This document shows positions 1-16,900 of a DNA stretch of 64,000 nt, in pieces. This stretch comes from Salminus brasiliensis. Taxonomy: Eukaryota; Chordata; Actinopteri; Characiformes; Bryconidae. The notes below the pieces were generated by a model. It made no database searches. It was not told the DNA's origin and worked only from the letters and a program-made list of their open reading frames with translations. Made by a program: the position numbers and the translations under genes. Numbering within the stretch: position 1 is the stretch's first letter; every line of letters starts with the position of its first letter. The stretch is from assembly GCF_030463535.1 (NCBI RefSeq), contig NC_132900.1, positions 28,531,956 to 28,595,955 of the forward strand, written 5' to 3'.

Positions 1-254
1 TTGGGGAGAGTTGGGGATGATGGGGTGAGGTGGTGATCATCATCAAACATTACCAACCTTACTAACATTTTTGTTGCTGAATGCAATCAAATCCTCACAG
101 CAATGCTCCTTCAGAATCGAGAAGAAAGCTTCTTCTCTGGAGAGTAGAGACAGTTACTCCAAAAGAAGCAGGTTCAACTCTTTTTTACAACCATTGATTT
201 GTGAAGAGACAATAAATGAGCAGGTGTCCCAATACTTTTGTCCCGATAGTGTCA
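1..254 (+). repeat. Short inverted-repeat element, 3' part (Tc1-like MITE family A)
   Basis: The left edge of the window cuts into a dispersed non-autonomous element that recurs at least ten times here (for example 13110-13545, 40935-41387, 45154-45655, 55665-56180). Shared landmarks are a GGGGATGATGGGGTGAGGTGGTGATCAT-like block, the phrase GCTGAATGCAATCAAATCCT, and the end CCAATACTTTTGTCC.ATAGTGT. The terminal motif resembles the inverted repeat ends of fish Tc1-like transposons. Assignment to Tc1/mariner is inferred from those ends; the element encodes no protein. Confidence 0.8.
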
Positions 255-735
255 CAGCAACCTAGCAGCCATCTAGCAATGCCACAGCTTCCACTTCGCA
301 CCAACTGCCTAAAATGCCATTGCAACCTTTTAGCAACATCATAGCAACCACATATCAACCACCTAACAACACCACAGCATACACTTAGCAACTACCTAGA
401 ACCCTATTGCAACCTCAATGCAACACCATAACAACCACAAAGCAACTACCTAGAAATACCATAGCAACTACCTAGAACCCTATTGCAACCTCAATGCAAC
501 ACCATAACAACCACAAAGCAACTACCTAGAAATACCATAGCAACTACCTAGAACCCTATAGCAATGTCCTAGCAACACTATAGCAACCACAAAGCAACTA
601 CCTAGAAACACCATAGCAACTACCTAGAACCCTATAGCAACGTCCTAGCAACACTATAGCAACCACAAAGCAACTACCTAGAAACACCATAGCAGCCACC
701 TAGCAAAAACATAGTAACTGCTTAGCAATACCACA
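255..735. repeat. 76-bp tandem repeat (AGCAAC-rich)
   Basis: From about 395 to 705 a 76-bp unit is repeated roughly four times; its anchor ACCCTAT falls at 401, 477, 553 and 629. The unit is itself built of shorter AGCAACTACCTAG and CATAGCAAC modules, and degenerate modules continue on both sides to 255 and 735. Short reading frames across it read through the repeat and are not genes. Confidence 0.85.
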
Positions 736-912
736 GCAACAGCCTAGCAAGGCCCTTTACCCTCTCTGCTCCCCGGGCGCTGGAGTTGGCTGCCCACCGC
801 TCTGGGTGTGTGTGTGTGTACTCACTGCCCCTAACACGTGTGTGTGTGAGTGTGTGTTCACTACCAGATGGGTTAAATGCGGAGGACACATTTCGCTGTG
901 CAGTGACAAATA
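736..912 (+). repeat. tRNA-derived SINE, 3' body fragment
   Basis: Matches the 3' two-thirds of the SINE at 63745-64000: GGCCCTTTACCCTCTCTGCT, a TG microsatellite stretch, and the tail GGGTTAAATGCGGAGGACAC. The tRNA-like head with its A and B boxes is missing, so this copy is 5' truncated, as is usual after target-primed reverse transcription. Confidence 0.8.
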
Positions 913-1534
913 CGTGCACCTTTACCTCTAGTAACCATCTGGCAACACCATAGCAACCACATAGCAAAAGTAGCTCTATGCAGTGACTGCGTAGCAAAAG
1001 CCTGGCAATTACCTGCAAGTAAAAACCACTTAAGTTGCACAACCATTCTGCATTTCTTCATATTCACAAGTCACAAGTTTGGCAACTTTACACATTTCAC
1101 ATTGCACCATGAGGATCTGTAAGATGTGACTAATGCTTAGAGATGTGGCATTCTGCAGTAAAGATCTGCATTGGTGAAATATGCTAAGGTTTGCAGAAGC
1201 GGTCAACACAGACCTTCAGTGGCTACATGAAAGGGGAAGGCTATTTCAGGCCTGAGACAAAAAACAAAGTTCAAGCAGCCGCTGCTTTCTTTCAAAGCCA
1301 CCTCCTTTACATTTACTGTTTCAGGGGAACAAATTGCAGAGATGCAGACGTGCACAAACATATCTACTGACCTTCAGCTTCTGCTGTGCTGAAGAAAACT
1401 GTAAGTACAAAAAATGCTCTACAAACGTTTGTTATGTAGCTGTATTACACATCAGTCATTTTAAGGATCAGTTAAAATAATATTTAGTTTATTACAAAAT
1501 GAATAATTGCTTTTGGTTTCTGATTTTGGTTTAG

Positions 1535-2743
1535 GGACACATGAATGAGTATACTGGTAAGTTAAACCGCATGATGTCATATAATAACAGAGGTGGATAA
1601 AAGCTGAACCTCACTTCTATGATAAAATACTGGAACATTTGAGCAGATGGAATGATGCTGGTAAAACTTGCTATCAATAGTGGGCTACTGATGATGGGGG
1701 GAAAAAGAAAGTACAAGGGCAAAACCTCTTAAAGGACAAATGAAGTTTTTAATCCAGTATGAATCTACAGTATATAAAGTTATTACTTTCTGATAGTATT
1801 ATTTATTTGAGTTATTTTACGTTAATTCGAAGAGTTTTTTTTTTTATCCAGCATGAATCTACAATGCTTTCACAGTCTGGGAGTATTAATTATGGAGAGA
1901 CTTTAATCTTTAGAGTTTTTAGATTAAGATTTAAAGATTTTAAGATTAAGAATATTCAGTATGAATCTGAAATGTTGCAGTCTTACAGTGATAAATGTGA
2001 AGTGACATTAATCCAGTATGAATTTGCAGTATGTAAAGTTGTTACAGTCTTACGGTAATAACTGTGAAGTGACTAATCCAGTATGAATTTGCAGTATGTG
2101 AAGTTATACTTCTCTGATAGTATTATTTATGTTATTTATTTTATGTCAATTTAAAGAGTTATTTTAATCCAGCATGAATCTACAACGCTTTCACAGTCTG
2201 AGAGTATTAATTATGGACTTTAATCCAGTATGAATCTTCAGTATATAAAGTTGCTACAGTCTGACAGTAATAACTGTGAAGTGACTAATCCAGTGTGAAT
2301 CTGCAGTATGTAAAGTTATTACTCTCTGATAGTATTCATTATGTTATTAATTTTAAGTTAATTTGAAGAGTTTTTTAATCCAGCATGAATCTACAACGCT
2401 TTCACAGTCTGAGAGTATTAATTATGGAGAGACTTTATTCCAGTATGAATCTGCAGTATGTAAAGTTGTTACAGTCTGGCAGTAATAACTGTAAAGTGAC
2501 TTTAATCCAGTATGAATTTGCAGTGTGTTGTTTAACTCTGGAGTGTTTTCTGTAGGATACATTCGTTACTTCTTGTTCTCAGTCTGGCTGTTCGATATTG
2601 TGATGATCTTCCTGGTGACGCACATCCACATTGATGTAATACGGATTCAGAAGAGGTGTGAGAGAGCAGACAGAGAATGCAGAGCTCGCACAGAAACCAC
2701 CAGCATCGGACACGAAGACAACGTGGAATATGAAAACACCTGA
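1535..2743 (+). CDS. Unrecognised small single-pass membrane protein, tandem copy 1
   Basis: First of three tandem paralogues. Visible pieces are an exon-1 remnant ending at 1400 before GTAAGT, mini-exon 2 at 1535-1556 (acceptor TTTAG, donor GTAAGT), and terminal exon 2556-2743 (acceptor TTCTGTAG, stop TGA 2741-2743). Phases match the other copies (0 into exon 2, 1 into exon 3). At the position of the sister copies' start codon this copy has CTG, so initiation probably moves to ATG 1541 in exon 2, giving 67 aa, or the copy is dying. The terminal exon is intact: a membrane span rich in F, W, V and I with a central Asp (VWLFDIVMIF), a basic stretch (RIQKRC), and the end EYENT. The Tyr-Glu-Asn motif fits the pYxN consensus bound by Grb2-type SH2 domains. 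AATAAA lies at 2777-2782. I do not recognise the family; function unknown. Confidence 0.55.
1750..2545 (+). repeat. Minisatellite in intron 2 of copy 1
   Basis: Diverged tandem copies of a unit with core AATCCAGTATGAATCTGCAG, TTACAGTCTGACAGTAATAA and TGTGAAGTGAC fill most of intron 2. They alternate with a longer module (TCTGATAGTATTATTTATG..., CAGCATGAATCTACAACGCT) seen about three times near 1790-1910, 2110-2215 and 2325-2430. The array runs almost to the splice acceptor of the last exon. It is clearly homologous to the array in copy 2 but older and less regular. Confidence 0.85.
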
Positions 2744-4140
2744 GAAAATGAACGACTGTTAACCCATTCATGACCAAATAAATACACTTAGCATTATATA
2801 GAAAATACAACAGAACCTGTTCTGATTGGCTGAAAGTGAGAAAATTCTGCACAGTCGCTTCAGATAAAAAGAAATCTGTACACCTCTTAATTTTTTTATT
2901 ATTTGTTTTTTTTTCAATGTGTAATTTTTATATTTCCATTTTTCAGAACTTAGATTTCTTTTCTCTTGGGTTCAAGAATGATTTTGTTTTATAATAAATG
3001 ATCAGTGGAAATGTTGGACATGCATGTTATACGCAAAATAGTTTTGTTTAATGTTAAATTGCTCAAAATTATGGATTTATCTGAAGCAAAAGAAAAATTC
3101 TTCATTATAAGAAAATGTGCTTCTGACATCGGTAGAATGACCAGAGTACTGCACAAGGTTTCTCACAGGGTTTAGAAGTCTCACTCTTTTTCTTAGGGTG
3201 TATTCACAAGTATTAAGTAAGTGTGAAAGCTGTTTCCTGTTCATTCAAAAGGGTGGTCCGGAGCAGCGAAACCCAGCCCTGTTGACCTCAACTCAGGAAG
3301 GGCTTGCTAATTAGCTGATTATCTGGATCCTCCAGGACTACTGGCACCTGGTCCTCCTGTGAACAAGTGGGATGGAGTGGGTGTTAAGGAAGCCCTGGTG
3401 TGGTCCAATCCCAATGTGCCCTGTAGACTACTTTAACTGTCGCAAAATACAACAGCCTCACGCTGTCATAGGTGGACAAAAAGTAAGGGGCAACTTGCGG
3501 GGCCCAAGCACTGACCACAATCAAATGACCACAGTTAGGTGACATCATCTTTGCAGTTCACATAATATAAATATCTTGCGATGTATTTTGATTGTTCAGA
3601 CTACTTCTAGCTAGTGTTTTTTAATTAAATTTAAATAAATATAAAATAACAATTTTATCAAATATATTTTTTTACTGAAACCCTGTTGGTGACCAACTAT
3701 GCTGGTGCTGTGAGCTTTTTTTTTTTTTGAGAAAAAACAAGCTGTTTTTTTTTTCAGCAGGGAACTAAGCATCAATCTGTAAGTATCAGGCATGTAGTTA
3801 TGTGCTGAAACCTGATATTTTACAAATAACAAAGCTGTAAAGGTGTCAGAATCAGAGGAAAGATCTTCAAGCGGTCCATGACTTCAACTTGAAAACCTGG
3901 AATAATGACAATGATTTTCTTCCCATGGCCAGCAGATGGCGTAGTGTGCAAACACTACTGAATGACCAGGTTTCCAGGACAGCTCTACTATCAGATCCTA
4001 TTGGAAGTCTTTTGAAATGTCAGGTTTGTCAGGTTTCATTCAACAGTCTGCAAAATCAAATGTCACATGGAGCTGAGGAGCTGCTCTGATTGACAAGCTG
4101 AGCTAAGTGCCAATATGGAAAAAATATTTATGTATGTCAT
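2744..4140 (+). other. 3' flank of copy 1, shared with copy 2
   Basis: No gene is seen here. The stretch holds the copy 1 3' UTR (AATAAA 2777-2782 and a further AATAAA near 2992) and blocks that reappear in order after copy 2: GATCCTCCAGGA.TACTGG near 3325 and 7648, CAATCTGTAAG/CAATCTGTAGG near 3773 and 8368, and GGAGCTGCTcTGATTGA near 4078 and 8616. These matched blocks show that the duplicated unit extends about 1.3 kb beyond the stop codon. Confidence 0.7.
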
Positions 4141-4159
4141 TAGACAAGACAACCATCTT

Positions 4160-4412
4160 CACCATTTGTGACATTTTGTGGATGGAATTTGGCTTCCGCC
4201 CTTTATCCCATTCGTGCAGTGAACACACACACACACACACACCAGTGAAACACACTCAGTGAGCACACATGCCTGGAGCAGTGGGCAGCCATTCCTGCGG
4301 CGGCCGGGGAACAGAGAGGGTGAAGAGCCTTGCTCAAGGGCCCAACAGTGGCAGCTTGCCGAGCCCCGGTATTGAACCCACAACCCTGTCATCAATAGCC
4401 CAGTGCTCTAAT
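4160..4412 (-). repeat. tRNA-derived SINE, reverse orientation
   Basis: This is the reverse complement of the SINE family at 63745-64000. On the minus strand it shows the tRNA-like B box region, the phrase TTGGGCCCTTGAGCAAGGC, a TG-repeat centre (plus-strand AC run at 4223-4242), and a degraded tail. An A-rich/T-run tract (4457-4483) follows on the plus side. Confidence 0.75.
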
Positions 4413-4453
4413 ATAATATATAAATGCAACAAATAAAACATGTAAATGTTTTG

Positions 4454-4488
<35 letters not shown>

Positions 4489-4754
4489 ATATACAACTTC
4501 TGAAGAACTGCATTACAATTGTGCAGAACTAGAAGCCTTAAGTAAGGAAAAATGGGCAAAATGCCCAAACAAGATCTGAAAGACTCCGAAAGACTGAAAG
4601 AAAAAGCTTTTATCCTCATTTGCAATAAAAAGATGGAAATAAAGAAGTAAACAAATAATCTTTAACTTTGAGACCTTTTGGAGATCAGATATTTTTACAG
4701 TAACAGATATTTCGACCAGGGGTGTCCAATCTTTAGCTTGCCAGTGGAGTCATA

Positions 4755-5046
4755 ATGTCAAGTCAAGTCAAGTCAAGTCGAGTCAAGTGGGTTTTATTGT
4801 CATTTCAACTACATACAGAGTACACAGTGAAACGAAACAACGTTCCTCCAGGACCATGGTGCAACATAGACAGTGCATACAAAAACACAAGTGCAACACA
4901 ACACAGTACAGACAGAGAATAATAAATAATGGCCGGTAGTGTGCAAATTCTGCAGTGTGTATAAATATTGAGTCCAGTGAGGTAGTAAGGTTATTAGTGC
5001 AAATGCTTTGTGCAAAAAAATGCTTCCCATTTTATCTGGGGTAAAT

Positions 5047-5106
<60 letters not shown>

Positions 5107-5220
5107 CATGTAGCAGAAAAGACATCAGTTCAGAAGTTGAGTTGAGAAGTCTGATGGCTTGGGGGAAGAAGCTATTGCAGAGTTGCAAAGGTTTCCAAAA
5201 GTGGCCCTTGTAGGGAAGAG
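4755..5220 (-). repeat. Dispersed repeat with AGTCA and GA simple-sequence tracts
   Basis: Begins with AAGTC pentamers (4756-4790), continues through GGGTTTTATTGTCATTTCAA and ACGTTCCTCCAGGACCATGG, and includes a pure GA dinucleotide run at 5052-5104. It ends around GGGGGAAGAAGCTATTGCAG. The text is of the high-copy type found across catfish and characin genomes (recalled, not searched). It separates copy 1 of the small membrane gene from copy 2 and sits just upstream of the copy 2 promoter. Confidence 0.6.
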
Positions 5221-5272
5221 ATGAGCCCCAGGCCCCCAAAACCGCACACATGCTTTCAGAGAAAAAAGTGTA

Positions 5273-5285
5273 ACAGGGGAAGTGG
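5273..5285 (+). promoter_or_regulatory. ETS-like site upstream of copy 2
   Basis: CAGGGGAAGTGG lies about 115 bp before the copy 2 start codon, at the position equivalent to the stronger AAAGAGGAAGTGG of copy 3. Flanking text also matches between the two copies (GAGCCCCAGGCCCCC.AAAACCGC against GAGCTTCAGTCCCTCAAAACTGC), so this is a duplicated promoter. The core GGAA is kept but the A-rich 5' half of a PU.1 consensus is weakened. Confidence 0.4.
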
Positions 5286-5398
5286 TCAGGCCTTCTCACT
5301 GCGTCACTCATCAGTACCTCCACCGCATCTATTCTGCTGCTTTGTTGGTATAGAAAGCGGAACACACCGGACATTCATGACTGAACTGAACAGCTGTA

Positions 5399-7348
5399 AT
5401 GGATTCAACTGTAAGTTCCTCTAAAAGAATTTAATATACTCTAATAAACTTATTACTGAGTGTTATGCAGATCAGTAGTGACAGTACTCATAACCAAGAA
5501 GTGTCAATTTCTGATTGGCTTAGGTGCTGGATGAATATTTTGGTAAGTTAAGCCACATCTCTTTCTATTATAAAGGACGATCTTTATAATAACATAAATA
5601 ATAAAATTTCAGCAGAAGGAAGTATACTGTATTTTGTTCTCTGATAATCACTCATTTTTTATTGCATGGTATTAATAATAATGTTATGAATATTACAACA
5701 TGGTTGTAATAGACTTTCAGATGGAGTCGGTTTTAGGTATGAGTTAGAAGTCAGATCAGTAGAATTCTCTTTAGAATCAATAAAAACAAGGATCCAAAAT
5801 TTGCAAAAGTAAAAAGAGAACATTCTTAATCTTTACTGCAATTTTATCTAGACTCTAAAGCTCCTATAGTATGAAAAAAAAACTTAAAATGAGCTTTTAA
5901 GGTTTAAAATGTTGTCTTTGTTCACCTCTACTGGTTTTATAGTGTTATTCCTCTAATCCAGTATGAATCTATCTGACAGTAAAAACTGTGAGGTAATTTT
6001 AATCCAGCATGAATCTGCAGAGTGAGTAGTTTTTACAGTCTGACAGTAGTGATCATAGAGTAACTTTAATCCAGTATGAATCTGCAGAGTTTTTACAGTT
6101 TTGACAGTAATAATTATAGAGTACCTTTAATCCAGTATAAATCCAGTATTAATCTAGTATAATAATGGAGAGCTTAATCCAGTATGAATCTGTAGTGCTT
6201 TTAACAGTTTTGACAGTAATAATCATGGAGAGTTTAATCCAGTATGAATCTGCAGAGCTTTTACAGTTTTGATAGTAATAATTATAGAGTAAATTTAATC
6301 CAGTGTGAATCTGCAGAGATTTTATAGTTTTGATAGTAATAATTATGGAGTAAATTTAATCCAGTGTGAATCTGCAGAGATTTTATAGTTTTGACAGTAA
6401 TAATCATGGAGAGTTTAATCCAGTATGAATCTGCAGAGCTTTTACAGTTTTGACAGTAATAATTATAGAGTTTAATTCAGTATGAATCTGCAGAGCTTTT
6501 ACAGTTTTGATAGTAATAATTATAGAGTAACTTTAATCCAGTATGAATCTGCAGAGCTTTTACAGTTTTAACAGTAATAATCATAGAGTAACTTTAATCC
6601 AGTATGAATCTGCAGAGCTTTTACAGTTTTGACAGTAATAATCATAGAGTAACTTTAATCCAGTATGAATCTGCAGAGCTTTTACAGTTTTGACAGTAAT
6701 AATCATAGAGTAACTTTAATCCAGTATGAATCTGCAGAGGTTTTACAGTTTTGACAGTAATAATCATGTGAGTGACTTTAATCCAGTATGAATCTGCAGA
6801 GCTTTTACAGTTTTAACAGTAATAATCATAGAGTAACTTTAATCCAGTATGAATCTGCAGAGCTTTTACAGTTTTGACAGTAATAATCATAGAGTAACTT
6901 TAATCCAGTATGAATCTGCAGAGGTTTTACAGTTTTGACAGTAATAATCATGTGAGTGACTTTAATCCAGTATGAATCCGCAGAGCTTTTACAGTTTTGA
7001 CAGTAATAATCATGTGAGTGACTTTAATCCAGTATGAATCTGCAGAGGTTTTACAGTTTTGACAGTAATAATCACGTGAGTGACTTTATTCCACTGTGAA
7101 TCTGCTGTGTGTGTATTTTAAAAATGGTTTTAGTGTTTTTTTGTTTGTTTGTTTTTGGAGGATACCATCGATATATCTTGTTCTCAGTCTGGCTGTTTGA
7201 TATTGTGATGATCTTCCTGTTGACGCACATCCACATAAAGAATAGACGGCTCAAGCTGAAGTGTGAGAGAATAGGAAGAGAATGCAGAGCACGCAGAGCA
7301 GCCACCAGCACCGGACAAGAAGACGAAGCAGATTATGAAAACATATAA
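5399..7348 (+). CDS. Unrecognised small single-pass membrane protein, tandem copy 2
   Basis: Three exons rebuild an uninterrupted 72-aa protein: 5399-5410 (ATGGATTCAACT then GTAAGT), mini-exon 5524-5542 (acceptor GGCTTAG, donor GTAAGT), and 7161-7348 (acceptor TTTTGGAG, stop TAA 7346-7348). The N-terminus MDSTVLDEYFG is acidic and has no signal peptide. One hydrophobic span covers about residues 14-36 with a buried Asp (WLFDIVMIF). A basic segment (RRLKLKCERI, RRECRARRA type) follows, marking the C-terminal side as cytoplasmic under the positive-inside rule. The protein ends in ADYENI, a pYxN-type motif. An out-of-frame ATG at 5377 precedes the chosen start. The start is chosen because it aligns with copy 3 and keeps frame through both junctions. 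Intron 2 is filled by a 61-bp minisatellite. Family not recognised; a signalling-adaptor role is only a hypothesis. Confidence 0.65.
5945..7110 (+). repeat. 61-bp minisatellite in intron 2 of copy 2
   Basis: About 19-20 head-to-tail units with core TTTAATCCAGTATGAATCTG, CAGAGCTTTTACAGTTTTGA and CAGTAATAATCATAGAGTAA. Consecutive anchors at 6541, 6602, 6663, 6724, 6786, 6847 and 6908 give a 61-62 bp period; units before 6480 vary from 57 to 64 bp. Units with AGAGG and a CATGTGAGTGAC end recur every third to fourth unit in the distal half, showing multi-unit expansion. The array stops about 50 bp before the terminal-exon acceptor. Confidence 0.95.
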
Positions 7349-8695
7349 GTCATTTATGCCCAAGCCCTACAATTGGCGTGATTGTTATTACACATTAGCA
7401 TAACTTAGCATGATTTGTCAGTACACATTTCAATTGTACTGCTATATCTTTAAAATTTTCATTAAATCAGATTTAACATATGAAATGGATCATTGGAAAG
7501 TTTGAACATACATATTAATGGTTGTTTAATGTTTTATATCTTATAATGACGGATCTATATGGAGCAAAAGTAAAGTACTCAAAAATAATATCTTTTAATC
7601 ATCAATTCTATGTGAAATGTCACATTTGCTAATTAGCTGATTAGCTGGATCCTCCAGGAGTACTGGTCCCTGGTCCTCCTGTGAACAGCAGAATTTGGAG
7701 TTGGTGTGGTCCAGTCCCGATGTGCCCAGTAGACTAATATAACTGTTTACATTTGGTCTCATTATTTACTATTTTTTGATGGTCATGGGAACCAAAAGTG
7801 GTACAAGGTTTACAATAAAAATACAATGCCTTGGACACAAAGTGAGAACCAAAAATATGAGTATTAAATTCCAAGCAGTCATTTGTGGCGGCCCATCCCT
7901 ACTTCAAGATTAAAGTAGACTTAAAATGCTACAGTCTAATTACATCACTTTTGCAATTTGCATAGCATGGTAGACTTTAAACTGATATCTTGTGGTTTTC
8001 ATAAAATTCAGACACTTTTTTTGAATGCATGTTTAAGTTGAACTTGTTTAAGTTGTGAGCACAGGCATTGAAATCACATGCTGGTTTTTAATGGTGAGTT
8101 TTTTTAAAAAGGGAATTCATGCTGTTTATTTCAACAGCATGAATTGGTGTGTTGCAACAGATAACACCACTACCTTCCAGTGAGCTACCACACCACGTCG
8201 GAGACTGGGGTTCAATTCCCGGTGTGGGTGACTGTGCTGCGCTACACCAATAAGAGTCCTTGGGCAAGACTCCTAACACTACATTGGCCCTCCTCTGTAA
8301 TATAAGTAACCTTGTAAGTCGCTCTGGATAAGAGTATCAGCTAAATGCCATAAATGTAAATGTAAACATCAATCTGTAGGCGGCGATTCTCTTTAATTTT
8401 AGAATGGGTTATAATACTATCAGTAATGCATGTGATCAAATGGTGAAACTTGAGATTTTACAATTAATTGAGCTGTAAATGTATCCAAGTCATATCAATC
8501 GTATCTGAAGTATATCAGGTGGCCCACAACACGACATTCTATTTGTAGCCTTATTAGATTAGTTAGATTTCATTAAACTATCAAAATTGTCCTTATCAAA
8601 TGATAAAAGAGGTAAGGAGCTGCTTTAATTGAAAAGCTGAGCTAATTTTATATGTAAAAAAAAAAAAAAAGGCAGCAAGTAAACTGTCAGTTTTT
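7349..8695 (+). other. 3' flank of copy 2, duplicated block without genes
   Basis: Noncoding. Carries the same ordered landmarks as 2744-4140, interrupted by the SINE at 8150-8372. The ordered matches continue to AAGCTGAGCTAA (8633 here, 4097 in the first block), after which similarity stops. This gives a duplication unit of roughly 3-3.5 kb. Confidence 0.65.
8150..8372 (+). repeat. tRNA-derived SINE with V-SINE-type tail
   Basis: The head holds a B-box-like GGGGTTCAATTCCCGG (8209-8224). The tail reads GTAAGTCGCTCTGGATAAGA and CTAAATGCCATAAATG, the highly conserved core found in many teleost SINEs and LINE partners. The same tail appears at 16945-17015 and, reversed, at 9408-9600. It was inserted into the copy 2 3' flank after duplication, because copy 1 lacks it. 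Confidence 0.85.
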
Positions 8696-8699
8696 GAAG

Positions 8700-8985
8700 G
8701 TAATGTGTTAAAAGCAGGACAAAATGGTCTGAGCCAATTTGACTAGAACCAAACTGATGGCCAGACGACTGGGTCTGAACATCTCCAAAACATCGCCCGC
8801 TGATGCGATCCATTGTGGCCCAACTTCACAATTAGCAAGACTTTAGCAGGAGAATTTGCTTGGTGTCTTGGTGCCAGATATCACGGGACACCTTCAGTGG
8901 TCTTGTGAAGTCCATGCCTCGAATGTTCAGATCTGTTGTGGCGGCACATAGGAGACCTCCTCAATATTAGTGTGATTTTTTTTCA
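8700..8985 (+). repeat. MITE family B fragment (GATCAGCC-type)
   Basis: Contains GGTGCCAGATATCACGGGAC, a block also present in the more complete copy at 43070-43575 (GGTGCCAGATATCACAGGAC). The terminal repeats are missing, so this is an internal, right-end fragment. Confidence 0.65.
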
Positions 8986-9118
8986 TATCATTTAAACAGC
9001 CTATGTAATAGCAAGAAAAAAATGATGCTAGTAGAAAAGCCATAAGCCATAAAGTTAAATATTACTGTATTACACATGATACAATGCATGGTACTTCTGA
9101 AAAATAGAAAGAATTCTT

Positions 9119-10015
9119 ATGCAAAAGTTTTGGGCACCCCAAGACATTTGATCCCTCATAATACCCTTAGGGCTATGGTTTGTTAACAACTATTGTTAGA
9201 AATGGTTAGAAAAGATCAAACCTTACTCCAACAATCGGCAGCCATGGGATCCTCTCAGCAGATCCTCTATTGCACAAATAAAATAGGTAGTTTTCCTATA
9301 TTTTTTTAAAGAAATGGCAGATAGGAGGAATGGTGGAGGTCAATATGAGAAAACGTTCAGAGGCAAATTAAAATCCCTGTTTGTAATTGAAGAATTTCAG
9401 GACATTTACATTTAAGGCATTTAGCAGACGCTCTTATCCAGAGCGACTTACAAAAGTGCTTTGCTATTTACCCAAGAAGAACCTCAGCTAGTTAGAATAG
9501 ACTAATAATTCACTCTGCTATTCGCCCAAGTACTCTCAGAAGAGGAGGGTCTTCAGTCTGGATTTGAAGACAGCAGGGTTTCTACTGTGCAGCGACGCCT
9601 GTTTATAGGAAAACATTTCATACATTTTCAAAGGAACATCTAAACCACCCAGTCCCACCCACTCTCTACCTCAAAATCCACAATGGACCACCTCAGAAGG
9701 CACAACCTAAAGATACTGCCATGGCCCTTAGTTCCCCGATTGAAACACTATTGAAAATCTGTGGATCAACCTCAAAAAAGCAGTGAAGCAAGACGTCCGA
9801 AGCATCTCACAGACGCCTTTTACAAGAAACAGTAGTTAAAAAAAATCCCCCAAACAAGAAGTGAAAAACTAAGCTGCTACAAAAAGTGTTTTTACAAGCT
9901 GGGATCCTCGCCAAAGGCCTTGCTAAGTACTGATCATGCAGGGTGACCAAATGTTTGCTTCTAAGTCTCTTTATTTAGTTTTTTTTTTTTTGCTTAGTTA
10001 TTTATATGATCTTTT
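9119..10015 (+). mobile_element. Decayed Tc1-like transposon
   Basis: Starts with AAAAGTTTTGGGCACCCCAA and ends with a GGTGACCAAATGTTTGCTTC-type terminus. Between them, stretches such as AAAATCTGTGGATCAACCTC and AATCCCCCAAACAAGAAGTG correspond to the 3' half of a fish Tc1-like transposase gene (IENLWINLK-type and NPPNKK-type residues), recalled from the family and not searched. No long frame survives and the centre is split by the SINE at 9408-9600, so the copy is dead. Confidence 0.7.
9408..9600 (-). repeat. SINE nested inside the Tc1-like remnant
   Basis: On the minus strand it gives the TTGTAAGTCGCTCTGGATAA core and ATGCC.TAAATGTAAATGTC tail of the V-type SINE, plus body text with TTCTTGGGTAAATAGCAAAG, which also precedes the tail at 16945-17015. 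It interrupts the Tc1-like element between its left part (to about 9405) and right part (from about 9605), so it is younger. Confidence 0.75.
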
Positions 10016-10147
10016 ACCTACTTAAATATTCACAGTGAAGCATATTGCAGTTTGCGAAAGTAGGCTTCAGTAAATACAAATGAGCTTCAGTCCCTCAAAA
10101 CTGCGCATGTGCTATTTAGAAAAAGGGTGTTAGGCTGTTTAAACATT

Positions 10148-10160
10148 AAAGAGGAAGTGG
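10148..10160 (+). promoter_or_regulatory. PU.1-like ETS site upstream of copy 3
   Basis: AAAGAGGAAGTGG is a near-perfect match to the PU.1 (SPI1) consensus AAAGAGGAAGTG. It lies about 80 bp before the ATG of copy 3, with no evident TATA box, matching the known layout of TATA-less myeloid promoters where PU.1 binds close to the start site. The match is seen in the sequence; use by PU.1 is inferred. Confidence 0.5.
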
Positions 10161-10235
10161 CATTAGACCTCCTCGCTATTTAGAACACAGAGACACAGAC
10201 TGCACTGGACACGCTCAAACTGCTAAAGTACTGTA

Positions 10236-11236
10236 ATGGATGTAAGTATCTCTAAAAGAAGATTATATAGTATATAGAGTATATAGAGTTACTCAACATA
10301 GAGATACTCTACAAATAAAGCCTATAACTGAGCTTTACTCAAAAAGAAAAACTGTTACTTTGTTATTAATTGGTTTTCTTTTTTGATTTGCTCAGGACAT
10401 GACTGTGTATTTTGGTAAGTTAAGCCACCCTTCTATTATTTATCTTTGTATTGGTAAGGTAAATTTGTAAAACCGTAATCTAGCAGAACGGAATTAACCT
10501 TTTGAACCCTACTTTTATGATTCTGGTATTAATCGTAATGCAGTGGAGTACCACAGGGTTCTATTTTAGGGTCTATGAACTTTATGTTTATTCTTAGAGA
10601 GTACTGAAGTGTGGGCAGTGAAGTGTACAGGGTTAAAGGAAGAGAAATCGCACAGTATTTCTAAAGGACTCACTTTGTTCTCTGAGGATTATTTATGACC
10701 TTTTATTTTTATTGTGTGGTTTTTAATAATTATGTAGTCAATTTCTCAACACTGACTTTCAGACGCAGTCCAGTTTCAACAACATGTTTGATCTTACCCA
10801 GTGCAAAAAAGCAGAACAAGGCTTATGTCCATTTTAAGTGTTAATTTGTGGTTTGAACTGTTATTTATAGTGAAATAGCACTTTTTTAGCACTAAACTGG
10901 ATCTAATGCTTCCGCATTCATCTTGTTTTTTTTTTGTTTGTTTTTTAACTTGCACTATTTTTTATAGTGTAATCTTTTTGTGATAATCTCCTATTTATTT
11001 ATTATTATTGTTTTTTTTCTGGAGGATGTATTCGATACTTCATATTCTCTTTCTGGGTGTTGAACATTGCAATGATCTTCATCCTGACGCACTTGGAGAA
11101 GCAGTTAATTCGGATCAAGCAGAGGTGTGTGACAGCAGAAAGGAAATATAGAGCTTTTATGGCAGCCACCAGCACCAGAAAAGAAGACAACGATATTGAA
11201 TATGAAAATATATATGAAGAAAATAACTTTTTGTAA
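10236..11236 (+). CDS. Unrecognised small single-pass membrane protein, tandem copy 3
   Basis: Spliced from 10236-10241 (ATGGAT then GTAAGT), 10396-10414 (acceptor TTGCTCAG, donor GTAAGT) and 11025-11236 (acceptor TTTCTGGAG, stop TAA 11234-11236), giving 78 aa. The N-terminus is MDDMTVYFG; the span (about residues 12-32) is similar to the other copies, but the buried acidic residue is Asn (FWVLNIAMIF). The juxtamembrane part is basic (LIRIKQRC), with a Lys/Arg cluster and then EYENIYEENNFL. Where copies 1 and 2 stop after YENT or YENI, this copy has Tyr and eight extra-tail residues, so it carries two C-terminal tyrosines. Intron 2 is only 610 bp and lacks the minisatellite. A dispersed repeat begins right after the stop codon. 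Function unknown. Confidence 0.65.
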
Positions 11237-11412
11237 GCCAGTGTTTCTCAACTCTGGACCTGGAGGCACATGAGGTGAACTCCCTGCAGCTCTGGAAGGG
11301 CTTGTTAATGAGTCCATCAGTGGAATCAGGTGTGTCGGGAGCAGGGAAAGCACTAAAACATGCAGAGCAGGGTGCCTCTGGGACCTGGGTTGAGGAACAC
11401 TGTTTTAAGCTA
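11237..11412 (+). repeat. Dispersed repeat in the 3' flank of copy 3
   Basis: TTTCTCAACTCTGGACCTGG to TTGAGGAACACTGTTTT is the text of a common teleost interspersed repeat (recalled). It begins essentially at the stop codon of copy 3, so the native 3' UTR and polyadenylation signal of that copy may have been displaced. An ATTAAA-like signal lies near 11529. Confidence 0.5.
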
Positions 11413-11694
11413 CATGCAGGTTTGGAGCATCTGTACATTTTACATCTTACATATCTCACATATAAACATGTATGTTTTCTAACCATAACTAATTTTTACA
11501 TTACAACCACAATGCTTTATCCTGTACCATTAAACAAGCTGTTTTTGTTACTGCACCTTTAAGTCATATGTAAACAAGTTGTGCTCTGATTGGTTGCATA
11601 GTATTATGCTTCTCTCAGAAAGTAGTACAGGGTAAACGGGAGGAGCTAAACTGAAGTAGGCCGAAAAGCTGTGTATATGCAAGTACACTGACTC

Positions 11695-12057
11695 CAGATC
11701 AGCCATAACATTACAACCACCCGCCTAATATTGAGTAGGACTTTTTGATGGATCACGTCACTGACCCTTGGATGCCCATAACCCTGTTGCTGGTTCACTG
11801 ATTGTCCTTCCTTGGAGCACTTTTGGTCGGTACGGACCACTGCATACCAGGACCACCACACAAGACCTGCCTGATGTATTGGAGATGTTCTGACTCTGAG
11901 TCATTCGTCTTGCCGTCACCTTCAAGAACTGACTGTTCACTTGCTGACTGCCTAACATGTAGATCCCACCTCTTCTCGGATTCCACTGGAAGCAGATAAG
12001 CAGTGTTACTCACGTCACCAATCAGTGGTGATTTTAATGTTACGGCTGATCTGTGTA
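11695..12057 (-). repeat. MITE family B, complete copy
   Basis: Bounded by inverted ends: AGATCAGCCATAACATTACA on the left and ATGTTACGGCTGATCTGTGT on the right. The interior includes ATTGAGTAGGACTTTTTGAT and AGGACCACCACACAAGACCT, which match on the opposite strand to the element at 43070-43575. No coding capacity; superfamily not determined. Confidence 0.75.
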
Positions 12058-13109
12058 TATCAAACTCATTTTATTTTTAATAATGGTGCTTTTTTATGTT
12101 ATGTTTATGAACGTTTTCCCATGATATGGTATCTTTAATAAATGTGTTCATTTAATGAATGTGTTTAACCAGTTTAATGCAAAAAGGCCCTCTGAACGTA
12201 ATATAGTCTAAATCATAGCTACAGAATTCATAAGCTGTTCTTATTTGTGAAGTGTTGCACTTTATAACAGAGGACTGTGAGCAGTGGGTTTCACAGGATG
12301 TGGTGTGGAAGACCACTGCAAATTCAGAAATATCTTTTCAGCATCTAGAACTGTATTCATTAAAAGCAGAATGGCTCTGTGGTCTAAAGAACCAGCAGAG
12401 CTGAAGCAGTAGCGACTGGTGGTCAGGTTTGGGCATTAAGCACTATGACAGAGACAAAATATGCAAAGCGGATAGAAGAGCATGAATTCACTCGGTCACA
12501 TCCGTACCAGCTGTGAGAACAGTCTAAAACATGTTTAAAAAGACAGAATTTACCTGAATCTACCTACAATTGACCTACACTTCCAGGACGAAATACATTC
12601 CTTCTTTTAGGAACTGGGCTGCTCCTTCAGGTGAGTTATTGGCTTGATTTTATAGGATGATGAGGATTCGTTGTCCTGTCCGCTGTGCCATTTATTAAAC
12701 CCTAAAATTATGTATATCTGCTAACTGGTAGAAAATAGTACTGCCATTGGCAGTCTGTCTTGGTCAACTCTATTCTCTTCACGAGTTGGTTTAACAAAAA
12801 ATGTTTTGTTGTGGTTAATTTAAGGCACTGCACTCACAGAATACTGCATGCGGTACAAAAGTGAAAGACCACCATAGGGCTCTAATGATAAGCTGTAAAT
12901 AAGCTTCTGTAAATATCACTAGTCAAAAGGGCGAGAACAGCTTGGATCAATTCAATCAACATGTCCATGTTGTACTATCAATATTTAAAATTTTATATCT
13001 ATATATAAAAATGTCAATGTAGCAGGCGTGTCATTTGGTGGTTATTTTGAGACACAACTGCTGAGTTGGCATTTTTAACACTTCTGATTGCATGAACTCA
13101 TCTCCGCCA
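12058..13109. other. Intergenic stretch, nothing recognised
   Basis: AT-rich DNA between the small membrane gene array and the 3' end of dnajc1. I see no exon with conserved coding sense, no tandem array and no clear transposon end. Confidence 0.5.
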
Positions 13110-13545
13110 CGCAAATATTTGTGGACTAATGAACGCATTCAGCTATTTTGTGTTGCTTTCATTGCTGATACAGCTTGCACACCATTCCCTGTAGATTAGT
13201 ATTGCCAATAGAATAGGACTCTCTGGAGCAGATAAACATGTACCAATTGGATCCATGCTACCTAATGCCAGGCATGGGATAGTGGGATATAAAGCCCCCC
13301 AGCATTGAGCTGTGGAACAGTGGAAGAACTGTGTTCTCTGGAATGACTTTTGGGATGAGTTGGGGAGTTAGGGATGATGAGGTGTAGTAGTGATCATCTA
13401 ACATTCTGACCTCACTAATGCTCTTGTTCCTGAATGCATCAATCAAACCCTCGCAGCAATTCTCCTCCAAACTCCAGAAAAAAAATCTTCTGCCCTGCAC
13501 AGCAGAAACAGTTACTCCAACAAAAGCAGGATAAACTTGTGTGTG
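13110..13545 (-). repeat. MITE family A
   Basis: Contains CCAATAGAATAGGACTCTCT, GGAGCAGATAAACATG, GCCAGGCATGGGATAG, TGGAATGACTTTTGGGATGA and ACAGTTACTCCAACAAAAGC in the order seen in all family A copies. Terminal ends are eroded. Confidence 0.8.
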
Positions 13546-13990
13546 TGTGCGCATGTTGTGAATTGATGCAAAGGACAAAAGACCCAGTATGAATGAGTTG
13601 TATATAATGCTTTATGTTTCATTACAGTGTGACTGAAAACGATAAACGAACGACATACTTTACCTCTGAAAAACAGAGAGGTTGTAAGATGTTCCAGAAA
13701 GAGAGAAGGACCATCCTAAAAAGTTGAGACGTTCTGTTCCTCATGCTTTAAACTGCACAGAGAAACGGCATGGATGGAGACCGCAGCATAGAACAATTTA
13801 AAATAAATAATGAAACTGATTTTTCAGCACATCTGCAGTTGTGTAACACAGGTCAGAGATGGGTTTCTCCAATACTGAAGTGTCCAGATACTGCAGAACA
13901 TGTAGATGTTCAGATGCACAGTATGGTTTTGGCAAAGCTAAGGCACATGACAGAGAGATGAAGGAACAGAGGGCTCGGAGGACCGGAGCG

Positions 13991-16900
13991 TCAGCTCTTG
14001 GCTTGTTTCCGTCTCTGCACCAACTCTGCGAGCAGCTTGTAACGGATCATGCACTCCTCCTGAGAAGAAAGCAGATGAGGATTAGCAGTATAGTGACAAA
14101 AATGACCTTGCATCTTCAGGTTTGTCATTTCTCATAATTTTGTGATGGCAGTTCCATTACACGTTGTCAGACGGTGCATTACATGACGCATGGACCAATA
14201 GAAATGCTCCAAAATGACTTAGAATTAAATCTTTTTATAGAATATAGTACAGAAATATAGTTCAAACATTTCCTGGATCTGTAGAGCCCGACCTTTTCAT
14301 TGCAGATCATTGCCAGATTGTACATGACTCATACCAGAAATTACGAGGCTAAGAACACAAGTGGACAAAATTGTCTGCCTCTCGCCATGTCTAACTGGTG
14401 GATTTGTGTGTGTCTGTCATCGGACACTCATCTGTAATTAGGTGAATTTGTGCATCCATCTATGGGTTTGTGTGAAACTGACCTGTGGACACTTAGAAAC
14501 TGATGGTAAGCGGGGTAAGCAGATATTTGAACCAGAGATCCTCAGAATTTCATAAATTCTTCATAGAAAAAGGTCAAAAATGAGATAAAACTTTGCAAGA
14601 CAAGCTTTGGTACCATATTCTCAGAGGTCAATCTCCTCTTAAGACCTGTTTTTTGGAGGTGGTAGAACTGCCCAATGGAGCCCTCAAGGGTTCTAATAAT
14701 GTACAATAATGTAGTTTGAAGAACTGAATTTTGGTCTTAATCACAGGGTTAAAGGGGTTAAGACAACCAGTTTTACAAACTCCTTTTCTATTTCCAAGTT
14801 TAAGAAAATGTGTCACCAGTAGTTTCCAATGGCTTGAAATTGAGTATTGCTCCAACACTGAATCATTTATGGCTACTCCACAAACTAGCCTGCTAACTAA
14901 AGGCTTTGACTAACCTTGCTTTTCCCTGGTACCACTTTAGCGATCTTGTCCCAGCGTTCAGCAGTGCCACGTGGGTACTGCTGCAGGGCGAGCTCCAGGA
15001 GCTTCTGTTGGTTCTGAGTCCAAACATCATCAGCAGTGTTGGGCTTCTCCTTGGGTGGTGCAGCAGGTGACAGCTTTTTCTCATCCTCGCTGTCCTCGTC
15101 CACTGCTGTGGGGTCAAAGTCTCTCTGCCTTCGCCCCTTCATCTTTTCCTCTCCTGTTCCCGCCCCAGCAGCAGACTTTCTGGCTCTCCTCCTCACGGTC
15201 TTGCTCTCCGGGTCTCCAGCTGCGTCGGGATCCGAGGGCCCCTGCAGCCCGACCTCCTCACGCTGGGTCATGAGGCTGTCAGGAACAGAGCTTTTTCCAA
15301 CCATTGCAGAACCCTTAAGTTCTGAAAGCTTCACCAGTCCTAGAAGAGAGAGAGAACAAGAGTTCCTCAGTTCCTCACTCCCCCAAATTTCTGTATTGCT
15401 GTAGGGATTTAATTGCACTCAAGTGACAAGAGCGTCAGTGAGGTCAGAATGTTGGATGATCATCACCCCAACTGATCCCAAAAGTGTTGGATGGAGCACC
15501 ATCAATCCAAAAACAACAACAACAACACCGTTTCACTGCTCGACAGCTTAATGCTGGGGTCTTCATAACCCTCTAGCCCATGCCTGGCATTAGGCATAGT
15601 GCCACCAGGTTCCTGTTAACATGTTTTAGAAAGTCCTATTGGAAGTACTTGTGTACAGGGACAAGCTGTGTGTGCGGGCATTTGCACGCCTGTGTCAGCA
15701 ATGGGAGCAACTTAAAGTAGCTGAATGCATTCATTAGAAGGCGTGCCTACAAACATTTGGACATACATACTTCAACATAGCACTTCAAACAGGACTCACC
15801 CGATGTGCTGGTGACTCCGTCTTTGATCTGTTTCACTTTTGCTGTGACCTACGAATGATCAGCGTTTCAGTGGGAAGTCAATCACTCAAAGGTTTAGATA
15901 AAACATATTAAACATAATGAAAAGTAATGAGCTTAGTATCGCTGTAATGCTCGAATGCCCTGAATGCACTACTCAAACACTCACATCAGCAACAGATCTG
16001 CCCAATTCATGAGCGATCTTCTCCCACCGGCCTGGTGTCCCTCCTGGAAACTTGGCCATGCCACGGGTCAGCAGGCTGACATCCTCATCGGTCCACTCTG
16101 GTGTCTAAAAAGATTGGGGGAAAAAAAATGCATTAACAATATACATATCACATAAATCAAATAACAAACCAACCGTAACCAAATATAAATAAAGCATGAA
16201 AATGATCTATGAACTAACCTTATTCTTCTGTTTCTTGTCCTCTAGCCAGTCGTCCATTTGATCCTCAATATCCTCAATGGATGCTCCCTGATCATACGCA
16301 GGTATGCCAGCTGCCTCACTGGGCTCATAAACTGGAAACTCCACTTTGGGTTTCTTCACCTTGGGGCGTTTCTCTCCTGCACAGGTCAACAAACATTCAA
16401 CTTTCTCCCGAAGAGCCAAAGAAAAAATCCTTTCTGTATAAACTTAAAAGCTATTGTAAGGACCACACCTCCAGTTAATGGAGTGTGGTTTGCAAAATGA
16501 ATGGAACGAATTTGGACTAAATTACAGGGCAGGCTTCTGGGTTACACTGGAAGACTAGATGCCCATTGCTAAACAGCCAAGAATGGAGTACAGGTGGGAG
16601 CTGGGATGGTAGGGAATGCAAAAAACACAGATGATTGGGTAATATATTACCTAGGAGGAAAGTGTACTTTTGGCTTGGGATTGGAACTCAGGACTCCTGA
16701 GCCATAGTGGTAACACATTAAACAGCTGAGCCTGTCAGAGCCCCTTAGATTGGGTTTTATGACACCACAAAAACAATTAACACAAAACACAGACTGTTTT
16801 GCGGCTTGGTTTCCATATACACCTGGGTCTTTGGAGTAAACAGCACATTTTGAAACATGCATACATACACATCACATTCTAATATACAAGTACTACTTAG

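Follow-up and report, generated by a model that had tools for sequence, protein, structure and literature searches.

We analysed a 64,000-nucleotide stretch of the Salminus brasiliensis genome (assembly GCF_030463535.1, contig NC_132900.1, positions 28,531,956 to 28,595,955 of the forward strand; hereafter the window, numbered from its first letter), which carries a tandem trio of small genes on its plus strand. The trio spans positions 1389-11236 and consists of one small gene present three times, with a common exon order, common intron phases and a common protein sequence. In copies 2 and 3, three coding exons are joined across GT-AG introns and the spliced frames stay open, giving proteins of 72 and 78 amino acids, respectively. 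The coding exons measure 12, 19 and 188 bp in copy 2 and 6, 19 and 212 bp in copy 3, with the same phases, and the second (22 bp) and terminal (188 bp) exons of copy 1 correspond to those of the other copies. Across the trio, GTAAGT stands at all six donors and AG at the end of all six acceptors. The plus strand of the window contains GTAAGT 18 times, and the arrangement AG-N19-GTAAGT is found twice on that strand and never on the minus strand; in both cases it marks a second exon, once in copy 2 and once in copy 3. The stop position is common to copies 1 (TGA) and 2 (TAA), and copy 3 reads through it, gaining the residues YEENNFL. A preliminary description of this DNA had given the exon coordinates, junctions and open frames of copies 2 and 3 as they were found here. 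Its three-copy layout was borne out in full for these two copies and, as far as paralogy is concerned, for all three; copy 1 departed from it in having no ATG in exon 1 and a shorter frame. The coordinates are collected in Table 1.

Table 1. Coordinates of the trio and of associated features in the window
Feature	Position	Strand	Remarks
Copy 1, end of exon 1	1389..1400	+	CTG opposite the ATG of the other copies, probably 5′ untranslated region; from alignment and frame check; blastn at E 0.01 gave no block shared with copy 2 or 3
Copy 1, exon 2 (22 bp)	1535..1556	+	Likely start ATG at 1541; donor CTG/GTAAGT
Copy 1, terminal exon, TGA stop	2556..2743	+	Predicted membrane helix; tail end VEYENT; AATAAA at 2777
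Copy 2, exon 1 coding part (MDST)	5399..5410	+	In-frame stop 4 codons 5′
Copy 2, exon 2 (19 bp)	5524..5542	+	Frame, blastn block, splice motif
Copy 2, terminal exon (188 bp), TAA stop	7161..7348	+	Predicted membrane helix; tail end ADYENI
Copy 3, exon 1 coding part (MD)	10236..10241	+	In-frame stop 4 codons 5′
Copy 3, exon 2 (19 bp)	10396..10414	+	Frame, blastn block, splice motif
Copy 3, terminal exon (212 bp), TAA stop	11025..11236	+	Read-through of the stop position of copies 1 and 2; tail end IEYENIYEENNFL
Copy 2, ETS/PU.1-like site (putative) GGGGAAGTG	5276..5284	+	123 bp 5′ of ATG
Copy 3, ETS/PU.1-like site (putative) GAGGAAGTG	10151..10159	+	85 bp 5′ of ATG
Minisatellite, 61-bp unit, 18 copies, in copy 2 intron 2	6028..7105	+	Dispersed genomic repeat, 239 genome matches, often arrays

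The in-frame stop that lies four codons upstream of the ATG in copies 2 and 3 fixes the start of both, provided that no further intron intervenes, and both ATGs have G at -3 and at +4. These features bear on a reading in which a larger gene, with additional exons upstream, merely ends in the three exons seen here. Such a gene would fit the very short first coding exons (6-12 bp), and the 40 kb 5′ of the window were only skimmed as frames of at least 55 or 60 amino acids, with family searches on two pieces. The upstream stops, the start context and the possession of an ATG of its own by each of copies 2 and 3 all point the other way, and we consider a larger gene quite improbable.

To place the start of copy 1, its upstream region was aligned with those of the other two copies. 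The start context of copies 2 and 3, GTAATGGA, fell opposite GTGCTGAA in copy 1, with CTG at 1389 in place of the ATG. The preliminary description had put the start at ATG 1342; this position had to be abandoned, since the 59 nucleotides from it to the donor give the wrong phase and the frame meets a TGA. The copy 1 frame is open from CTG 1389, where a near-cognate start would be needed, and also from ATG 1541 inside exon 2, from which positions 1541-1556 and 2556-2743 encode 67 amino acids. The ATG at 1541 is the simpler solution and the likely start.

Paralogy at the DNA level was analysed by plus-strand blastn between chosen stretches (1000-3900, 5150-8800 and 9900-12000; E up to 0.01). Comparison of copies 2 and 3 revealed five blocks: three cover the exons (exon 1 together with its donor, exon 2 and the sequence flanking it, and the terminal exon), and two are short intron segments (38 and 23 bp). 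Between copies 1 and 3, blocks were found at exon 2 and at the terminal exon, along with three others measuring 21-26 bp. Copies 1 and 2 aligned also through intron 2, largely via the 61-bp minisatellite, and at three places outside the genes, over 58-137 bp. No block with either of the other copies was detected for exon 1 of copy 1. Copy 3 is the most diverged, and the larger blocks that can be aligned to it are exons. At the protein level, a search of the 1.07-Gb genome with copy 2 recovered copy 1 at E 3.9e-21 and copy 3 at E 1.2e-9, and each of the copies, used as the query, led back to these three loci with E values no higher than 1.2e-9; the search scores the best candidates only, and three is the number of copies detected. 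A chance pattern in non-coding DNA would be in keeping with the ease with which short exons and frames are found by eye and with the open state of some minus-strand frames, but it is largely refuted by this protein paralogy, by the six GTAAGT donors and by the exon-shaped conservation, and is hardly credible.

Among the best candidates of the protein searches, nothing beyond the trio fell below E 0.0245. Weaker genome matches (L011, L012, L013, L021, L022, L026 and L027; E 0.0245-5.3) were considered as further paralogues and judged, from their translations only, to be low-complexity or chance. L012, L022 and L026 are low-complexity, L022 and L027 hold a stop, and the match of L013 covers 21 residues. 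The least clear was L021, which resembles copy 3 from residue 19 (28%), lacks Tyr-Glu-Asn and has a weak membrane half; it was also taken as chance. In viral contigs, 40 stretches fitted a pattern and one was confirmed (L031, over 13 residues only), which was likewise taken as chance.

Analysis of coding constraint gave mixed evidence. The ratio of nonsynonymous to synonymous substitution rates (dN/dS, Nei-Gojobori) was 0.92, 0.78 and 0.78 for the three pairs, and the ratio of the corresponding proportions (pN/pS) was at or above 1 in 43%, 25% and 21% of bootstraps. Neutrality was not rejected by dN/dS, and the synonymous counts therefore give no sign of purifying selection. Resolved by region, pN/pS was 0.41-0.58 in the membrane half, 0.89-1.15 in the basic helix and 0.84-1.36 in the tail, all from small counts. 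Retention of the reading frame speaks against pure drift. The 61-codon frame of the terminal exon is free of stops in all three copies, for which a simulation of neutral evolution (about 92 substitutions over the three-copy tree) gave P = 0.02-0.05, varying with the starting sequence. The sole length change within this shared frame is one codon; one inserted codon of copy 3 was omitted from the simulation and from the regional pN/pS values. From a repeat-rich alignment, about 9 insertions or deletions (indels) would be expected under neutrality, giving a probability of about 0.001 that no frame break occurs, but this alignment includes the dispersed minisatellite (239 matches) and is for that reason a poor neutral standard. 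A milder rate derived by hand (about 0.07 per substitution, from three flanking blastn alignments with 297 columns, 5 gap openings and 75 non-identical columns) lowered the expectation to about 6 and gave P = 0.006-0.01. The joint neutral probability of frame retention is roughly 1e-5 to 5e-4, and all these figures carry a selection bias in that open frames had been picked for the preliminary description. The two wrong plus-strand frames of each terminal exon contain 3-6 stops each. On the minus strand the frames contain 0-4 stops and two of nine are open (one of three in copy 1, one of three in copy 3, none of three in copy 2), so frame length alone is weak evidence.

These results also bear on whether the copies are decaying duplicates of a once-functional gene, one of them perhaps still working and the rest drifting. 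Decay would explain the dN/dS values near 1, the CTG in place of ATG in copy 1 and the read-through of the shared stop position in copy 3. It is harder to reconcile with terminal exons that lack a stop or frameshift in three of three copies, with intact GTAAGT at six of six donors, and with the simulated probability of 0.02-0.05 that no stop would arise in any of the three, a value in which indels are not yet counted; we regard it as improbable. The preliminary description had named a lack of spliced reads in immune tissues, and dN/dS near 1 together with broken frames in sister species, as the outcome that would speak against the genes. Of these, dN/dS near 1 was found (0.78-0.92), and no frame was broken within the Salminus brasiliensis genome. 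On the strength of frame retention taken together with the six GTAAGT donors and the paralogy, the three copies are very probably real coding genes.

The predicted proteins have similar features. Hydropathy analysis identified one best 19-residue hydrophobic segment in each of the three (mean 2.07-2.25), preceded by 10-15 residues with a net charge of 0 to -2 and followed by 15 residues with a charge of +1 to +5. The simplest reading of this pattern of charge and hydropathy, from which alone the topology was derived, is a single-pass protein with its N-terminus outside and its C-terminus inside; by hydropathy, no evident signal peptide is predicted for any copy. An AlphaFold2 model of the copy 2 terminal exon contained one helix at residues 2-55 of 61, and residues 58-61, including the YEN end, had a predicted local distance difference test score (pLDDT) below 50. 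With a mean pLDDT of 73.7, a predicted template modelling score of 0.40 and an input of 3 sequences only, the model backs little beyond a long helix. The alignment has 25 invariant columns, Tyr-Glu-Asn among them in all three copies. Midway along the membrane segment stands a polar residue, which is Asp in the first two copies and Asn in the third. The tail is 38 residues long and has a single tyrosine in copies 1 and 2; that of copy 3 has 46 residues and three tyrosines. In every copy the first cytoplasmic Cys stands 11 residues beyond the helix window. From its sequence, we describe the trio as a genuine and probably coding family of three tandem genes for membrane microproteins, one of which is altered at its start.

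We also compared the trio with known families. No Pfam-A family passed its cut-off for any of the three proteins, a PDB sequence search with copy 2 gave no match, and none of the titles listed in literature searches named the family. The preliminary description had called the family unrecognised, a claim that is supported as far as Pfam-A (three proteins) and PDB (copy 2) extend. HMMER matches were accepted to E 10, with filters that drop most above about 0.1. In this range copy 3 matched Pfam SCIMP (PF15050) at E 0.073 (13.9 bits against a cut-off of 27, confined to positions 1-64 of a profile of 132), and no match to that profile was obtained with copy 1, copy 2 or the trio consensus. When the first two thirds of copy 3 were locally scrambled with the tail left intact, SCIMP was matched at E 0.0061; a second scramble matched DUF6526 at E 0.028 and not SCIMP, and neither the consensus nor the consensus with the copy 3 tail gave a match. 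Eight full within-segment shuffles of copy 3 produced a match to some Pfam family in five cases (E up to 10), to SCIMP in none, and two of the eight (E 0.0079 and 0.03) surpassed the SCIMP match. The shuffles show the match to be of chance strength, and kinship with SCIMP was rejected on that basis. The resemblance consists of a tyrosine motif after a single membrane helix, besides the weak match of copy 3. SCIMP carries YENV, and a short YEN-type tail may be what it and the trio have in common. A search of the Salminus brasiliensis genome with the SCIMP profile found nothing, and its control was likewise without a match.

DAP10 is a second point of comparison. It is a tiny adaptor with an acidic residue in its membrane helix, a point on which the trio is divided, with Asp in two copies and Asn in the third. 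Its tyrosine, like that of the trio, has N at +2. The DAP10 motif is YINM, and Grb2 is bound through pYxN (as described in part of PMC7226588). At this position the trio reads YENT, YENI and YENI in copies 1, 2 and 3, so that YxN is kept and M is missing. The trio differs from DAP10 further in having no evident signal peptide, no YxxM and, outside the membrane, no cysteine in copies 1 and 2 and one in copy 3. The DAP10 profile (PF07213) did not match any of the three proteins at E up to 10; in the Salminus brasiliensis genome it just reached its cut-off once (22.9 bits, E 0.075), in a 370-amino-acid frame of a different contig, and gave two matches under the cut-off. More generally, YxN serves as a binding site for SH2 domains of the Grb2 family: the tail tyrosines of immunoglobulins have a conserved YXN core that forms a Grb2 site (a section of PMC4263166), and the YxN of a catfish leukocyte receptor is said to fit the Grb2 motif (a section of PMC4810170).

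Leukocyte transmembrane adaptor proteins (TRAPs) combine a short outer end with one membrane helix and a long tail that has several tyrosines and Grb2-type YxN; the palmitoylation motif is absent from LAX, and GAPT has multiple Grb2-binding motifs (from parts of PMC4861716). With the TRAPs (LAT, NTAL, LAX, GAPT and SCIMP) the trio shares the short outside end, one predicted membrane helix and a cytoplasmic YxN tyrosine. Unlike them, it has a tail of 38-46 residues with one YxN in place of a long multi-tyrosine tail, and no Cys within ten residues after the end of the helix window, where most TRAPs have a juxtamembrane palmitoylation motif. The FcR-gamma/CD3-zeta type resembles the trio in that very little of it lies outside the membrane, which it crosses with one helix. 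The TCR_zetazeta profile matched none of the three trio proteins, yet passed its cut-off at four other places in the genome (L032, L033, L034 and L035), which shows that the genome search is able to see such exons. These four FcR-gamma/CD3-zeta-type membrane exons carry a CYILD or CYFLD motif and, by eye, no immunoreceptor tyrosine-based activation motif (ITAM) in frame after the helix, so that their tails must be on other exons. The trio has no CYILD-type motif, and its helix and whole tail are on one exon. Copies 2 and 3 contain one YxxI (YENI), and inspection by eye found no second YxxL/I at ITAM spacing.

The comparisons bear on whether the trio represents divergent members of the FcR-gamma/CD3-zeta, DAP10 or SCIMP families. 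The SCIMP match of copy 3 and the YxN form of the DAP10 tyrosine (in the part of PMC7226588 cited above) speak for such kinship. They are outweighed by the shuffles that match some family more strongly, by the missing SCIMP match of copies 1 and 2 and the consensus, by the missing CYILD/CYFLD motif, and by DAP10 and TCR_zetazeta profiles that leave the trio unmatched, and we consider membership very improbable. By analogy, a mode of action like that of DAP10 or the TRAPs is possible, yet by these tests the trio is a member of neither.

Taken together, the data are best explained, tentatively and with somewhat less than even confidence, by three tandem paralogous coding genes for single-pass membrane proteins of 67-78 amino acids that would act as minimal signalling adaptors. 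Each protein would sit in the plasma membrane, with a short acidic or neutral N-terminus outside and a membrane helix continuing into a basic cytoplasmic helix, followed by a disordered tail with the invariant Tyr-Glu-Asn at or near its end. Pairing with a receptor would possibly take place through the polar Asp (copies 1 and 2) or Asn (copy 3) of the membrane helix; a kinase would phosphorylate the tail tyrosine, and the resulting pYxN would then recruit a Grb2-family SH2 protein. We infer expression, topology, phosphorylation, Grb2 binding and receptor pairing from the sequence; a function for the trio is plausible, and this particular adaptor mechanism, proposed by analogy, is a possibility to which we give slightly less than an even chance. 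Several points weigh against the proposal. Neutrality is compatible with the bootstraps, the cytoplasmic parts have pN/pS of 0.84-1.36, and minus-strand frames are sometimes open as well. In addition, the membrane Asp is missing from copy 3 and the exon-1 ATG from copy 1, and the Pfam cut-off was not reached for any known adaptor family.

Another explanation accepts real microprotein genes and gives them a job that does not involve SH2 proteins: the membrane helix and the basic helix would bind another membrane protein, such as a channel, a transporter or a receptor, and regulate it in the manner of other single-pass micropeptides. YEN would then be incidental or a trafficking signal. The lowest pN/pS lies in the membrane half (0.41-0.58), the predicted helix is one continuous element, and the tails of copies 1 and 2 have a single tyrosine motif compared with the several tyrosines of TRAPs (as given in part of PMC4861716), all of which would suit this explanation. 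Set against this are the invariance of Tyr-Glu-Asn in three of three copies amid a variable tail and the three tyrosines in the tail of copy 3. We consider this explanation unlikely, though more probable than the other rivals of the adaptor proposal. More speculatively, and in our view also unlikely, the adaptor proposal may be extended to a new lineage-restricted class of minimal transmembrane adaptors in fish, with fewer than 80 amino acids, one pYxN and one membrane polar residue. Such a class would escape annotation on account of coding exons of 6-22 bp. Its members would diversify as they duplicate in tandem, with selection on them relaxed or shifting, and the copies would come to differ in the start, the polar residue or the tyrosine tail. 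If expressed, the trio would be a gene family easily missed by automatic annotation, with first coding exons of 6-12 bp and second exons of 19-22 bp, and possibly a minimal receptor adaptor in fish. If the adaptor proposal is true, it would show how little sequence an adaptor may need, namely one helix and one YxN.

The upstream regions of copies 2 and 3 contain motifs that we take to be ETS/PU.1-like (Table 1). The 8-mer GAGGAAGT has a single occurrence in the 64 kb, both strands counted, and the upstream alignment does not set the copy 2 and copy 3 sites opposite one another. Expression in leukocytes or other immune cells is only hinted at by these putative sites.

Repeats accompany the trio. 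Units related to the 61-bp minisatellite are present in intron 2 of copy 1, at about 1740-2530. Between copies 2 and 3 lies the 3′ element of a UnaL2 long interspersed nuclear element (9411-9464, minus strand, E 1.2e-12), the only Rfam match in positions 1-15000, and a tandem array with 22- and 76-bp periods and AGCAAC-type units occupies 324-750 at the left end of the window. Downstream, a minus-strand frame that we take to be DNAJC1 had a Myb-domain match at E 6.9e-5 (23.3 bits, just below the cut-off of 24.4), and another minus-strand frame, presumably PIP4K2A, had two PIP5K matches above the cut-off. A plus-strand frame that we assume to be BMI1-like gave no Pfam match for the piece within the window. 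About 9 kb upstream of the window, an open plus-strand frame of 190 amino acids (L014, 348-920) presumably resembles the N-terminal part of a Tc1/mariner transposase. Also upstream of the window, a membrane protein with multiple helices (ITPAGWAFSIWGFLYTWLL) is represented by several exons on the minus strand, at 6082-9157 of L014; the pieces tried had no Pfam match, and by eye the protein is TspO-like.

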